This document shows, one piece after another, positions 38,768 to 45,614 of a DNA stretch of 64,000 nt. The notes beneath the pieces were generated by a model. That model made no database searches. It was given only the letters and a program-made list of their open reading frames with translations, and was not told the DNA's origin. Source of the stretch: Pandoraea capi (GTDB taxonomy: Bacteria; Pseudomonadota; Gammaproteobacteria; Burkholderiales; Burkholderiaceae); NCBI RefSeq assembly GCF_902459735.1, contig NZ_CABPRV010000007.1, forward strand, positions 124,001 through 188,000. Direction: 5' to 3'. Numbering within the stretch: the first letter of the stretch is position 1; each line of letters begins with the position of its first letter. Both the position numbers and the translations under genes were made by a program.

Positions 38768-39226
38768 TCAGGCCAGCGACGACGCGGCGTCTTTGATGGC
38801 CGCGCGAATGCGGGCGTAGGTGCCGCAACGGCAGATGTTGCCGGCCATGGCGGCGTCGATCTGCTCGTCGTTGGGCGTCTTGTTCTCACGCAGCAACGCG
38901 GTGGCGGACATGATCTGGCCACTCTGGCAGTAGCCGCACTGGGGCACGTCGTGCTTGACCCAGGCGTCCTGCACGGCACGGCCGACGGGGTCGGCGCCGA
39001 CGTTTTCGATGGTGGTGATCTTCTTGCCTTCGACGGCGGAGACCGGCGTGATGCAGCTTCGGATGGGCGCGCCGTCCATGTGGACGGTGCAGGCCCCACA
39101 CAACGCCATGCCGCAGCCGAACTTGGTGCCGGTCATGTTGAGCGCGTCGCGCAGGGTCCAGAGCAGGGGAGTGGCGGGGTCGACGTCGACCTTCACCGGT
39201 TTGCCGTTCAGTTGGAACGAAGCCAT
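38768..39226 (-). CDS. 2Fe-2S subunit of the molybdenum hydroxylase (IorA-like)
   Basis: 152 residues with two iron-sulfur sites: plant-type ferredoxin cysteines 38, 43, 46 and 58 ('FGCGMALCGACTVHMDG', 'RSC'), and the helical-bundle site cysteines 97, 100, 132 and 134 ('PQCGYCQSGQIM', 'NICRCGTY'). It passes electrons from the molybdenum centre. No signal peptide is present, so it is probably exported with its Tat-signalled partner. It is promoter-proximal in the two-gene operon. Confidence 0.95.
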   Translation of the reverse strand: MASFQLNGKPVKVDVDPATPLLWTLRDALNMTGTKFGCGMALCGACTVHMDGAPIRSCITPVSAVEGKKITTIENVGADPVGRAVQDAWVKHDVPQCGYCQSGQIMSATALLRENKTPNDEQIDAAMAGNICRCGTYARIRAAIKDAASSLA

Positions 39227-39583
39227 AGATGCACCTCTTGATGGGTGGATGGGGGCGGATGAATCGGGGGACGGCTAGAACATACTCCCATTCGTTGGAA
39301 ATTTCAGTTCACAAGTGCGTCGCAAGTCGTTGTATCTAAACGGATATAGCGGTCGACTTTTAATGTGAAAGTGACGATGGCGATTGCTGGGAGTGGCGGT
39401 CGTGAAGGCGGTGTCAACGCTGCGATGAGGCTGTCGCGCTCGCGTCAAAGCGGGGATTCGGAGGGGATCGGCGCACCGGGACGAGGATTTCAGCGCGGCG
39501 CCGACGTGTTGCGGTGCAATGAAGTACAATTCGACCTACATTCCCCTACCAACACTTTCCCAAGCCGGAAGAAAGATCTGGGC
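39227..39583. other. Divergent intergenic region upstream of iorAB and of the DUF3683 leader
   Basis: About 357 bases without a gene. An AT-richer part (39285-39375) probably carries the iorAB promoter on the minus strand, and the part from 39500 on that of the leader transcript. No clear palindromes are found. Confidence 0.45.
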
Positions 39584-39679
39584 ATGCGCACCAACTGCCT
39601 CACCCCCCTGTGCTTCTGCTCGATGACCGAACACGACTCGTCATCGACGTCTTCGCACGGCAGTCGTCGATCTCGTTGA
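39584..39679 (+). CDS. Putative leader peptide of a transcription attenuator (31 codons)
   Basis: A short frame beginning 'MRTNCLTPLCFCSMTEHD' and continuing with a Ser-rich, then Arg-rich end (eight Ser, four Arg in 31 residues; three Cys in the first half). It ends in TGA within a hairpin (39661-39693) that is followed at once by a terminator-like hairpin (39696-39736). This order is that of amino-acid or ribosome-stalling attenuators. It stands 145 bases before the DUF3683 oxidoreductase start. Not assignable to a leader family I know; coding status is inferred from the layout. Confidence 0.5.
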   Translation: MRTNCLTPLCFCSMTEHDSSSTSSHGSRRSR

Positions 39680-39736
39680 CCGTAGATCGACTGTTGCCGG
39701 CCCGCGCATACCCTTTGCGCGAGCGGCCGGCATTTT
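39661..39736 (+). promoter_or_regulatory. Tandem hairpins forming a probable attenuator
   Basis: Hairpin 1 pairs TCGATCT (39667-39673) plus CAG (39661-39663) with AGATCGA-CTG (39684-39693) around the leader stop codon. Hairpin 2 pairs GCCGGCC (39696-39702) with GGCCGGC (39725-39731) and inner GCGCA with TGCGC, then ATTTTC. A further palindrome CGTCT-CGCG-AGACG lies at 39766-39779, just before the gene. Confidence 0.55.
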
Positions 39737-39823
39737 CAGCGCACACCCGATTTTGACTTTCGGCGCGTCTCGCGAGACGAACGCCGACGGCGGATGCACC
39801 GCCGCACTGACGAGCCCGACAAG

Positions 39824-42800
39824 ATGAACGCACCCTTGCCTGCCTTCGAGCCGCACGACGCTAAACATGCCGTAGCCGCTCACCCGCCACGTCTGCGTGA
39901 AATTCCTTACAACTACACGTCGTTTTCGGATCGCGAAATCGTCATGCGCCTGCTCGGCGCGGACGCCTGGGCCATCCTCGACGAACTCCGTGCCGAACGC
40001 CGTACCGGCCGCTCGGCGCGCATGCTGTACGAAGTGCTCGGCGACATCTGGGTCGTGCGCCGCAATCCGTATCTGCAAGACGACCTGCTGGACAATCCGA
40101 AGCGCCGCAAGCTGCTGATCGACGCGCTCGACCACCGTTTGAACGAGATCGACAAGCGTCGCCGTGCCGACGTGGCTCAACACGCCGACACGCACGGCCG
40201 CGATCGTGCCGCGCGCGTCGAGCAACTGGAAGTGGCCGCCCGTCGCGCCGTGGCCGAGTTCGCCGCCGAGTTCGAGAAGATGGCCGAACTGCGCCGTCGC
40301 GCGAAGAAGGTGCTCGGCCGCACGACCGCCAGCGACAACATCAAGTTCGACGGCCTGTCGCGTGTCTCGCACGTGACGGACGCCACCGACTGGCGCGTGG
40401 AATATCCGTTCGTGGTGCTCACGCCGGACAGCGAAGCGGAAATGGCATCGCTGGTGAAGGGCTGCTTCGAACTCGGTCTGACCGTGATTCCGCGTGGGGG
40501 CGGCACCGGCTATACCGGCGGCGCGATTCCGCTCACGCCGTTCTCGGCCGTCATCAATACGGAAAAACTCGAACAGCTCGACGAGGTCGAATACCTGCAA
40601 CTGCCGGGCGTCGACAAGCTCGTCGGCACGATCTTCTCGGGCGCCGGCGTGGTGACTCGCCGTGTGGCGGAAGCCGCCGAGCGTGCCGGGCTGGTCTTCG
40701 CGGTGGACCCGACGTCGATCGACGCCTCGTGCATCGGCGGCAACGTGGCCATGAACGCCGGCGGCAAGAAGGCCGTGCTGTGGGGCACGGCGCTGGATAA
40801 CCTCGCCTGGTGGCGCATGGTCGATCCGCAGGGCAACTGGCTGGAAGTCACGCGTCTCGATCACAACCTCGGCAAGATTCACGACATTCCGGTCGCCCGC
40901 TTCGAACTGAAGTGGTACGACGGCAATCAGGCGCCGGGCGCCGCACTCCTGAAGACCGAACTGCTGGAAATCGAAGGCCGGCGCTTCCGCAAGGAAGGCC
41001 TCGGCAAGGACGTCACGGACAAGTTCCTCGCCGGCCTGCCGGGTATCCAGAAGGAAGGCTGCGACGGTCTGATCACGAGCGCGCGCTGGATTCTGCACAA
41101 GATGCCGGCGCACACGCGCACGGTGTGTCTGGAGTTCTTCGGTCAGGCGAAGGAAGCGATTCCGAGCATCGTCGAAATCAAGGACTACATGTTCGCGCAG
41201 ACGGCCGCCGGTGGCGCGATTCTCGCGGGTCTGGAGCATCTGGACGAGCGTTATCTGCGCGCCGTGGGCTACGCCACGAAGTCGAAGCGCAACGCGTTCC
41301 CGAAGATGGTGCTGATCGGCGATATCGTTGGCGACGACGACAACGCGGTCGCCCAGGCGACGTCGGAAGTGATCCGCATGGCCAACGGCAAGAGCGGCGA
41401 AGGGTTCGTCGCCGTGTCGGCCGAGGCGCGCAAGAAGTTCTGGCTCGACCGCTCGCGCACGGCGGCGATCGCGCGTCACACGAACGCCTTCAAGATCAAC
41501 GAAGACGTGGTGATTCCGCTGCACCGTATGGGCGAGTACACGGATCACATCGAGCGCATCAACATCGAGTTGTCGCTCAAGAACAAGCTGCAACTGGTCG
41601 ACGCCCTCGAAGCGTTCTTCGAAGCCGGCAATCTGCCGCTCGGCAAGACGGACGACGCGAACGAGATTCCGTCGGCCGAACTGCTCGAAGACCGTGTGCA
41701 GACGGCGCTGACGATGCTGCGCCAGATCCGTGGGCGCTGGGAGTATCTGCGCGAGAACTTCGAGATGCCGCTGGCCGAGGCGATTCCGCTGCTCAACCGT
41801 CACGGCATTCGCGACATCAACGTCGCGCTGAACGACCGTCTGAACAAGCAGCCGGAAACGCGCCTCATCGATCTGCTTCAGGACCGCACGGTACGCGTGT
41901 CGTGGAAGCAGGAGATCCGCGCGGAACTGCGTCAGATCTTCACCGGCGGCGAGTTCAAGCCGATCCTCGACGAAGCGCAGGCCATTCATAAGCGCGTGCT
42001 GCACGGTCGTGTGTTCGTCGCACTGCACATGCACGCCGGCGACGGCAACGTGCACACCAACATCCCGGTGAACTCGGACAACTACGAGATGCTCCAGGAT
42101 GCGCACAAGGCCGTGGCCCGCATCATGGACATCGCGCGCTCGCTCGACGGCGTGATCTCGGGCGAACACGGTATCGGCATCACCAAGCTAGAGTTCCTGA
42201 CGGAAGCCGAAATCGGCGAATTCCGCGCGTACAAGCTGCGCGTGGACCCGGAAGGGCGCTTCAACAAGGGCAAGTTGCTCAATCTGCCCGAACTGCCCGC
42301 CGATCTGCGCAATGCCTATACGCCAAGCTTCGGGCTCATGGGCTACGAATCGCTGATCATGCAGCAGTCGGACATCGGCGCGATCGCCGACAGCGTGAAG
42401 GACTGCCTGCGCTGCGGCAAGTGCAAGCCGGTGTGCGCCACGCACGTGCCGCGCGCGAACCTGCTGTACAGCCCGCGTAACAAGATTCTCGCAACGTCGC
42501 TGCTCATCGAGGCGTTCCTGTACGAAGAACAGACGCGCCGCGGCGTGTCGATCAAGCACTGGGACGAGTTCAACGACGTGGCCGATCACTGCACGGTCTG
42601 CCACAAGTGCGCCACGCCCTGCCCGGTGAAGATCGACTTCGGCGACGTGACGATGAACATGCGCAACCTGCTGCGCAAGATGGGCAAGAAGAAGTTCAAC
42701 CCGGGCGCGGCTGCCGGTATGTTCTTCCTGAACGCGACCAACCCGGAGACGATCAACATCACCCGCAAGGTGATGATCGACTGGGGCTACAAGGCGCAGC

Positions 42801-43925: not shown

Positions 43926-45614
43926 ATGGAGGTAGTCTACACAGCACTCATCCTGCTGTTCGTGGTGGCACTGACCGGCGTGCTGGTCAGCTTCGTCAGA
44001 TTCCTGCCCGTGCCGCTCGTGCAGATCGCCGTGGGCGCCGCGCTCGCTTACCCGGGCGCGGGGCTGCACATCGATCTCGACCCCGAGATTTTCTTCCTGC
44101 TGTTCATCCCCCCGCTGCTCTTCGCTGATGGCTGGCGCATGCCCAAACGCGAGTTCTGGCACCTGCGGGTGCCGATCGTCGCGATGGCGCTCGGCCTCGT
44201 GATCTTCACGGTGCTCGGCGTGGGGTACTTCATCCACTGGATGATTCCGTCGATTCCGCTCGCCGTGGCGTTCGCGCTCGGCGGCGTGCTCTCGCCGACC
44301 GATGCCGTGGCCGTCTCCGCCCTCACCGGGCGCATGCGCATGCCCACGCGGCTCATGCATGTGCTCGAAGGCGAGGCGATGATGAACGACGCATCGGGTC
44401 TCGTCGCGTTCAAGTTCGCGCTGGTGGCAGCGATGACTGGCGTCTTCTCCATCGGTAACGCCACGTTCTCTTTCTTCGTGATCGCACTGGGTGGCCTGCT
44501 CGCCGGATGGGCCGTGACGTGGCTCTTTACGCAATTCCATCGCCGCGTGATGGACGCCTCGACGGAAGAGCCCGCGACCATCGTGCTGCTTCTGCTGCTT
44601 ATGCCGTTCGCGGCCTATCTGCTGGCGGAACACTTCGGTTTCTCGGGGATTCTGGCGGCTGTGGCCGCCGGCATGACGGTGAGTTCGACCGACCTGCTCA
44701 ATACCCGCACCGCCACGCGCATTCTCGGCAACGGCGTGTGGTCGATGCTCGAATTCGTATTCAACGGCGCGGTGTTTGTGCTGCTCGGGCTGCAATTGCC
44801 GGATATCGTGCGCGCGGCGCTGCGCCCGAGCGAGCATCTGTGGGGCACGTTCGTGAATCTGGGCGAGCTGATGTTCTACGTCGGCGCGATCTCGGCGGCG
44901 CTGATCGTGCTGCGCTTTTGCTGGGTGTGGGCGGCGTGGCGCGTGATGTATTTCCTCGGCATGCGTCGTGGCGAAATCACGATGAAGCCGGGCATCCGCT
45001 TTACCGGTGTGACGGCGCTCTCGGGCGTGCGTGGCGCCGTGACGCTGGCCGGTGCGCTTTCGGTACCGCTGGCGTTGCCGAGCGGCGCGCCGTTTCCGGG
45101 GCGCGATCTGCTGATCTTCCTCGCAGCCGGTGTGATTCTGCTGTCGCTCATCGGCGGCAGTCTTGGTTTGCCGGTCTTGCTGCGCGGCGTGCGCTGGCCG
45201 GTCGAAGACCCGCGCAATCGTGAGATGGGCGAGGCGCGGCTGGCGGCGTCGGAGGCGGCGATTCGGGCCGTCGAATCATTGCAGAAGGTGATCGCCAAGT
45301 CGGGAGATGAGCTGGATACGGCCGTGTGCGCGGAAGCTGCCGCGCGGGTGATGGGGCGTTACCGTCGCTCGCTCAATGCGTCGACGGCGACCGACGAGAT
45401 GCGCGAGCGCGCCGTGCGCGAGGTCGAAGTCGAGCGTCGCCTGCGGGCCGCGGCGTTGCAGGCGGAGCGCGTGGAGTTGTCGCGGCTGCGCATCACGCAT
45501 CGCATCAACGACGAGACGCTGCGCGAACTGCTCAGCGAGATCGATTTTGCAGAACTCGCTCTGGGTCCGGTCGATCCGGCCACGGGCAAGCGCAAGAAGA
45601 GCAAAAAGCACTGA
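43926..45614 (+). CDS. CPA1-family Na+/H+ antiporter
   Basis: 562 residues. About 12 membrane segments fill the first 420 residues. 'GGVLSPTDAVAVSAL' and 'EGEAMMNDASGLVAFKFAL' are the ion-binding motifs of cation:proton antiporters (the N-D pair), and 'TGVTALSGVRGAVTLAGALSVPLALP' is another conserved segment. The last 140 residues form a charged cytoplasmic helical tail. It exchanges Na+ (or K+) for H+. GGAGG precedes the ATG. A 12-bp tandem repeat lies 26 bases upstream. Confidence 0.93.
   Translation: MEVVYTALILLFVVALTGVLVSFVRFLPVPLVQIAVGAALAYPGAGLHIDLDPEIFFLLFIPPLLFADGWRMPKREFWHLRVPIVAMALGLVIFTVLGVGYFIHWMIPSIPLAVAFALGGVLSPTDAVAVSALTGRMRMPTRLMHVLEGEAMMNDASGLVAFKFALVAAMTGVFSIGNATFSFFVIALGGLLAGWAVTWLFTQFHRRVMDASTEEPATIVLLLLLMPFAAYLLAEHFGFSGILAAVAAGMTVSSTDLLNTRTATRILGNGVWSMLEFVFNGAVFVLLGLQLPDIVRAALRPSEHLWGTFVNLGELMFYVGAISAALIVLRFCWVWAAWRVMYFLGMRRGEITMKPGIRFTGVTALSGVRGAVTLAGALSVPLALPSGAPFPGRDLLIFLAAGVILLSLIGGSLGLPVLLRGVRWPVEDPRNREMGEARLAASEAAIRAVESLQKVIAKSGDELDTAVCAEAAARVMGRYRRSLNASTATDEMRERAVREVEVERRLRAAALQAERVELSRLRITHRINDETLRELLSEIDFAELALGPVDPATGKRKKSKKH

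Follow-up and report, generated by a model that had tools for sequence, protein, structure and literature searches.

In attenuators of the his, trp, leu and ilv type, a leader peptide is placed ahead of an amino-acid biosynthesis gene. In T-box regulation, it is the pairing of RNA with a tRNA that acts, and there is no leader peptide. Among described systems, the nearest analogue in the same order as the locus treated here is CruR of Bordetella, a copper uORF of the DUF2946 class ahead of bp2923, for which, as far as the account in PMC9426467 goes, a C-terminal arrest motif and a Rho-dependent output are described. How does the leader of a giant flavin enzyme gene of Pandoraea capi compare with them? 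The best reading of the sequences is that this leader belongs to a new family of leader peptides (uORFs) before a gene proposed for serine synthesis. Its small open reading frame (sORF) has no Pfam match, DUF2946 included, and RAPP does not occur in the sORFs listed. Rfam gave no match at gathering score for a known riboswitch, T-box or leader over the whole window, that is, the entire stretch of 64,000 nucleotides analysed, and the three matches in the leader all lie far below that score. A search of the open-licence PubMed Central literature, supplements being outside its scope, found no description of a leader peptide for this enzyme gene, and the part of PMC4603805 that was covered does not mention one.

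The features of the locus are collected in the Table. A preliminary description of this DNA had pointed to a frame of 31 codons, a hairpin straddling its stop, and a GC hairpin with ATTTTC before an enzyme of 1331 residues, and all of these are present in the sequence and among its inverted repeats. The sORF is separated from the enzyme gene by 144 nt. In the comparison of upstream regions, the enzyme start at 39824 is common to most relatives; an alternative in-frame ATG, ten codons upstream at 39794, is ACG in loci L013 and L014. The divergent neighbour is presumably a xanthine-dehydrogenase-type subunit. With a loose pattern (T[AT][ACG]AAT within a 75-nt stretch), TACAAT, TAGAAT or TAAAAT was found 24-53 nt upstream of the sORF ATG in all 121 loci examined. 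A strict consensus scan of the leader gave no sigma-70 site, so that the -35 element would be weak. Predicted anti-SD pairing is stronger at the sORF than at the enzyme start in 31/31 Pandoraea loci and in 89 of 90 other loci.

Table. Features of the leader and its surroundings (positions in the window)
Feature	Position	Strand	Basis or remark
Divergent neighbour, 2Fe-2S protein	38768-39226	-	Pfam Fer2, Fer2_2
Likely -10 element TACAAT of the leader promoter	39525-39530	+	predicted; transcription would start about 7 nt downstream
Predicted ribosome-binding region of the sORF, GCCGGAAGAAAGATCTGGGC	39564-39583	+	also part of the 5' arm of the long-range helix, in Pandoraea only
Leader sORF, 31 codons including the start, and TGA (39677-39679), MRTNCLTPLCFCSMTEHDSSSTSSHGSRRSR	39584-39679	+	conserved ORF
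Hairpin 1, straddling the sORF stop	39658-39699	+	inverted repeat 39658-39673/39684-39699
CGA-TCT, Arg29-Ser30, shared motif near the sORF end	39668-39673	+	CGA in frame across genera
Hairpin 2, GC-rich, followed by ATTTTC	39695-39732	+	inverted repeat 39695-39702/39725-39732
Predicted long-range helix, 3' arm, partner of the sORF ribosome-binding/start region	39739-39764	+	Pandoraea folding
Two hairpins just before the enzyme start, 39760-39787 and 39788-39804	39760-39804	+	nearly invariant in Pandoraea
DUF3683/DUF3400 FAD/Fe-S enzyme, 1331 aa	39824-43819	+	Pfam: DUF3683, FAD_binding_4, FAD-oxidase_C, Fer4 (4Fe-4S), CCG, DUF3400
Downstream neighbour, Na+/H+ exchanger-family protein	43926-45614	+	Pfam

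What does the enzyme do? The preliminary description took the role of the gene as unknown, which is out of date, for a like-built protein has been linked genetically to serine synthesis. According to the account of Price 2018 (PMC5764234), BPHYT_RS03150 of Burkholderia phytofirmans is needed in most defined media, its mutants are partly rescued by L-serine, and the protein is proposed to supply the missing phosphoglycerate dehydrogenase step; neither BPHYT_RS03150 nor its relative from Herbaspirillum complemented an E. coli serA mutant in that account. A paper of 2024 (PMC11535334) calls this protein SerA, as far as its text goes on the basis of Price et al. The domain order of the window enzyme in Pfam matches that of BPHYT_RS03150 as described in PMC5764234, the two being compared by architecture. 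By this likeness, the window enzyme is proposed to be an enzyme of serine biosynthesis, and the amino acid of its pathway is probably serine. It is to be noted that long-type SerA (TIGR01327) scores over the cut-off in none of 61 genomes, that of P. capi included, versus 9 of 14 control genomes, while relatives below the threshold of this profile, the only one used being that of the long type, occur in 58 of the 61. The flavin-type enzyme may stand in for SerA in these bacteria.

How widely is the sORF found? The search for the enzyme matched 92 of 101 genomes, part of them only through distant relatives of the protein, and three sets of loci were compared: 79 orthologue upstream regions drawn from this search, an 80th stretch being set aside as the wrong end; 80 named loci, which ranked best among 591 candidates; and 60 upstream regions hand-picked among the matches listed (287 of 299 family genomes matched). 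The sample of 60 spans genera g8, g10, g11, g13, g17, g20 and g25, of which g10 is Caballeronia, g11 Burkholderia, g20 Paraburkholderia and g25 Trinickia by sequence shared with named loci, and 12 of the 60 repeat stretches in the earlier sets. The conservation of the short ORF, proposed earlier as a check, is borne out: the sORF stands at the same place in all 31 loci of the genus Pandoraea, with the same start (TGGGCATGCG), and in all 60 sampled loci, which represent Burkholderia, Paraburkholderia, Caballeronia, Trinickia and three further related genera. In this sample, 58 sORFs were found by peptide similarity, five of them scoring below 100 with L243 the weakest at 38; in the remaining two (L201 and L202) the sORF lies further upstream than the search range and ends RARS-stop. 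Outside Pandoraea, the sORF has mostly 30-43 codons, begins at -217 to -372 and is typically MHWQPRIAHLMPVPRESCPAAERHVRHARSC. By clustering of ORFs upstream of the enzyme gene, no such sORF was seen in 15 Cupriavidus/Ralstonia-type, 22 Oxalobacteraceae-type, 10 Comamonadaceae-type, 7 Polynucleobacter-type and 24 other loci, the type names being our own labels, partly after record titles. In the Cupriavidus/Ralstonia group (L034, L036, L039, L150-L158), another gene ends about 150-250 nt upstream of the enzyme, and the family sORF was not seen there. We take that gene to encode a DedA-like membrane protein. Locus L045 apparently has just a short leader, and L038, outside the sample of 60, has an ORF that ends GRSA with CGA-TCC.

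The N-termini of these peptides are lineage-specific; even in Pandoraea they are MRxNCLTPLCFC-like in 28 loci and MRFDLRTFTC in three. The common part is an Arg-Ser pair near the C-terminal end. The codons CGA-TCT are in frame in all 31 Pandoraea sORFs, which were chosen by their start alone, and an in-frame CGA is present in all 58 sampled sORFs found by peptide similarity and in the other two of the 60; since the 58 were chosen by similarity to reference peptides that bear the motif, they are not a wholly independent test of it, and sets of 46 loci and 70 sequences, selected with the Arg-Ser motif, do not test its conservation. The Ser codon at the conserved end is TCT in the 31 Pandoraea sORFs, and TCG in 57 and TCC in one of the 58 sampled ones. 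Among 123 loci, the residue after Arg-Ser is Cys, Arg or Trp, or there is a stop, and the stop comes 0-4 codons past the conserved Ser in 118. In locus L041 (genome G037), CGATC occurs in frame at more than one place: at RARSWR, a Burkholderia-like ending, and at a final RRSR, a Pandoraea-like one.

Is the sORF kept as a peptide? Outside Pandoraea, it is under selection at the amino-acid level, as judged from the substitution patterns. Among 39 distinct non-Pandoraea sORFs, pN/pS is 0.43 in frame versus 1.86 and 1.21 in the other frames, and in 70 distinct ones the excess of differences at third codon positions over codons 2-28 was reached by only 16 of 20000 column shuffles. In the same 70, Arg15 and Arg26 are invariant with codons varying synonymously, which points to selection on the peptide. 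The test on Pandoraea alone gave 0.67 in frame versus 1.57 and 0.57, those sequences being too close to decide. It is scarcely credible that the frame is a chance ORF in a GC-rich leader, conserved through an overlapping promoter and RNA structure, a notion with which the Pandoraea statistics would agree but to which the frame-specific selection in the 39 and 70 sORFs and the presence of the sORF in 60 of 60 sampled loci are opposed.

As to composition, the Pandoraea sORFs have a mean of 6.7 Ser in 32 residues, with a minimum of 2, where the window genes have 5.3% Ser, and the non-Pandoraea sORFs, with a mean of 2.7 Ser in 34 residues, are little enriched. Because Ser is little enriched there, the classical run of control codons is missing outside Pandoraea. 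A serine pathway agrees better than Cys does with the conserved codon for Ser and with the many Ser of the Pandoraea peptide. Serine is favoured over cysteine as the signal because mutants of the like-built protein are partly rescued by it, and it is the better candidate also because the conserved end retains Ser through synonymous codons, before an enzyme whose architecture is linked to serine synthesis.

From these observations a scheme can be drawn, which we give about an even chance of being right: the region would be the 5' leader of a serine-biosynthesis gene with a cis-acting leader peptide, a pause at a CGA-Ser pair, and Rho or initiation as the output. From a promoter around 39525, an RNA would be made whose first ribosome-binding site serves the sORF. 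A ribosome would pause near the end of the sORF at the pair of CGA (Arg) and TCN (Ser), and its dwell time there may report the supply of serine, either through charging of seryl-tRNA or through a serine-sensitive nascent peptide ending in R-S. The position of the ribosome would then decide expression of the enzyme, by shielding the C-rich leader from Rho or, as an alternative output, by refolding of the hairpins that immediately precede the enzyme's weak ribosome-binding site. The transcription start, translation of the sORF, the pausing, serine as the signal, and Rho or initiation as the output are the parts that we infer. For the pause speaks that CGA is constant (31/31 Pandoraea and 58/58 sampled sORFs) though it is rare in window genes, making up 37 of 882 Arg codons (4.2%) in 28 of them. 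CGA is read by an inosine-34 tRNA-Arg via a weak I-A pair. Against a serine pause speak that a single Ser codon would be an unusual sensor and that CGA may be constant on account of a nucleotide element and not of decoding. It might be possible to narrow the scheme to an attenuator of a single codon pair, in which the rare CGA primes the pause and the supply of seryl-tRNA sets its length, with no codon run and no terminator, and with Rho or initiation as the output; in so narrow a form we hold it to be doubtful.

The possible role of Rho can be judged from base composition. In each of the 122 loci compared, the spacer from sORF to enzyme contains more C than G, which would be mild support for action of Rho. 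The support is only mild because the window leader ranks second of 37 upstream regions in the window by its best C-over-G stretch of 78 nt, while the excess across its last 144 nt is unremarkable (4.2%). Within the sORF, C fails to exceed G in 14 of 91 non-Pandoraea loci.

Which other explanations are to be weighed against the serine pause? One is an arrest peptide that senses a metabolite: the nascent (R-x-x)R-S would stall the ribosome on a non-serine ligand or a redox state, and charging of tRNA would play no role. The invariance of Arg15 and Arg26 at the amino-acid level, in the 70 distinct sORFs, exceeds what a codon sensor needs, and Arg close to the C-terminus is known from arrest peptides, namely those of the RAPP class and, in the account of PMC9426467, CruR. 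But it is the codon CGA that is constant and not just Arg, the Pandoraea peptide has only the R-S end in common with the others, and neither RAPP nor RAGP occurs in the sORFs listed, so that we regard the arrest peptide as unlikely, if well worth keeping in mind.

Still less probable is that the constant CGATC acts as a nucleotide element, as a binding site on RNA or DNA or as a pairing partner, to which the peptide is incidental. The identity of CGATC in the sORFs found, with CGATCGTG in 56 of the 58 sampled ones, would agree with such an element. Selection at the amino-acid level at other positions of the sORF does not, nor does the place of CGATC, in frame in 58/58 sORFs found by similarity to reference peptides that carry the motif, nor the base after it, which varies synonymously for Ser. 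As for pairing, no shared complement was seen: the GATCG close to the start of the sORF reads GACCG in Trinickia, and the downstream partners of CGATC differ by lineage.

The sORF might also encode a free-standing microprotein which merely shares the promoter of the enzyme gene. Its conservation at the amino-acid level would be explained, and in Pandoraea the N-terminus, being rich in Cys, might bind a metal or a redox cofactor. However, from one lineage to another the N-terminus is exchanged but the last residues stay, and the stop remains near the enzyme, at 134-196 nt in 77 loci and at 121-233 nt in 58 sampled ones. There is also no second significant copy in the eight genomes searched for further copies, and in six of them the peptide match is significant at the enzyme locus only; hence the leader peptide seems dedicated to the enzyme gene. 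In that search, scoring covered 150 of the 352-617 first-look candidates of each genome, and the true locus was missed in G040 and G037, where it was not significant, so that divergent copies would escape it. On balance we find a microprotein slightly harder to accept than a nucleotide element.

The leader RNA is predicted to be folded unusually stably (z = -4.74, with none of 200 shuffles as stable), and overlapping alternative pairings are possible in the Pandoraea leader. Covariation of the two hairpins had been suggested earlier as a check, and the outcome is divided. In Pandoraea, hairpin 1 is paired in 89.4% of cells with no compensatory change, and most of its pairing is gone in 8 of 31 loci; three of these eight that were folded (L017, L027 and L028) have a shorter local hairpin predicted at the site. 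Hairpin 1 as a conserved antiterminator is not supported, given the absence of compensation and its loss in 8/31. Hairpin 2 is paired in 86.5% of cells, one listed pair being unpaired in 27/31, and it has changes on both sides at six pairs versus 3.0 in shuffles (3 of 500 as high) and 19 such cells versus 8.8 (none of 500 as high), where the shuffles ignore relatedness. These two-sided changes make it probable that hairpin 2 is a genuine RNA hairpin in Pandoraea. Neither hairpin was recognised in the other genera.

The long-range helix has 94.4% of its cells paired in Pandoraea, with little variation in the arms and no covariation; its mean pairing there is 0.76, where the three other groups have 0.00-0.05 and a single odd locus has 0.16. 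As a general switch between the sORF start and the distal arm it was rejected, being found in Pandoraea only and without covariation, and no alternative-structure switch common to the lineages was seen when pairing was compared across the groups. The two hairpins just before the enzyme start occupy the same position as hairpins HA and HB of the Burkholderia lineage. HB ends about 20 nt before the enzyme start, and its stem appears in compensatory types by species: GCCGG/CCGGC, GUCAG/CUGAC and GCCGA/UCGGC. By a crude criterion, HB is present in 82 of 93 loci outside Pandoraea. Among the distinct stretches of 35-95 nt from these 93 loci that have a recognisable HA, 65 of 66 contain HB, versus 63% of shuffles, so that the count alone is weak and the compensatory stems carry the weight. 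When the distal region was aligned with MAFFT and folded as a consensus, hardly any structure emerged (-2.3 kcal/mol). Two further observations concern the same stretch. The sORF Ser codons at 39637-39643 (CTCGTCA) are complementary to 39808-39814 (TGACGAG) just before the enzyme start; in 28 of the 31 Pandoraea loci 6 or all 7 pairs can form, and in the other three 3 of 7. At 39766-39779, CGTCTCGCGAGACG is a perfect palindrome in the enzyme leader, with one mismatch in many Pandoraea relatives; besides forming a hairpin, it might act as an operator.

Does the leader end in a terminator? Ribosome-mediated attenuation was the reading of the preliminary description, and of this reading the conserved leader peptide is strongly supported and the intrinsic terminator is not. 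The T-run with ATTTTC behind hairpin 2 is not conserved in the Pandoraea alignment; an automatic scan of 39220-39840 gave no intrinsic-terminator-like site, with 0.6 expected in shuffles; and a lenient scan of 77 loci gave four matches (three in Pandoraea and one elsewhere), their T-runs being interrupted. An intrinsic terminator at this leader was rejected on these grounds. A classical terminator/antiterminator attenuator that senses Cys, for which one might cite the terminator-like look of 39695-39738 by eye and the covariation of hairpin 2 in Pandoraea, is faced with the same results and also with the distribution of Cys. Three Cys in the first 12 codons, as had been remarked in the window, do recur in 22 of 31 Pandoraea sORFs, but 15 of the 74 distinct peptides from other genera contain no Cys. 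Cys is thus unlikely as the sensed amino acid in general and was rejected as a general signal, and we consider a classical Cys attenuator very improbable.

If the preferred reading of a serine-responsive leader peptide is true, it would add an undescribed leader-peptide family across Burkholderia, Paraburkholderia, Caballeronia, Trinickia and Pandoraea, and it would give a regulatory handle on a poorly understood flavin enzyme proposed for serine synthesis. A response of the leader to serine would independently support the proposed role of the enzyme. The constant CGA-Ser pair makes a sharp, testable prediction, namely that one codon pair acts as the sensor.

How, then, does this locus stand among the known systems? 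Like the serine genes of Paenibacillus polymyxa under T-box control, as far as PMC8002221 describes them, it would let serine supply control serine biosynthesis, which for the present locus is a proposal; unlike a T-box, it has a leader peptide and matches no Rfam family at the gathering threshold. With amino-acid attenuators as outlined in PMC1183508 it has in common that a short leader peptide, here rich in Ser in Pandoraea, precedes a gene for amino-acid biosynthesis; what sets it apart from the his, trp, leu and ilv type is that control codons form no run outside Pandoraea and that an intrinsic terminator is not conserved. In sinR of Bacillus subtilis, according to the account in PMC3862929, TCN serine codons serve as a sensor of serine, as is proposed here; the sinR codons lie inside the regulated gene itself, while the present ones are in an upstream leader peptide beside CGA. 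CruR is a uORF of 145 residues, predicted to be exported, with CXXC and RAPP, and it works via Rho and not via an intrinsic terminator, as far as it is described in PMC9426467; the present sORF has about 31 residues, an R-S end with a constant CGA and a target in amino-acid biosynthesis, and Rho in its leader is a proposal only. What the two have in common, within what the same source describes, is a uORF in Burkholderiales ahead of its target gene, a conserved C-terminal motif that begins with Arg, and a C-rich region.
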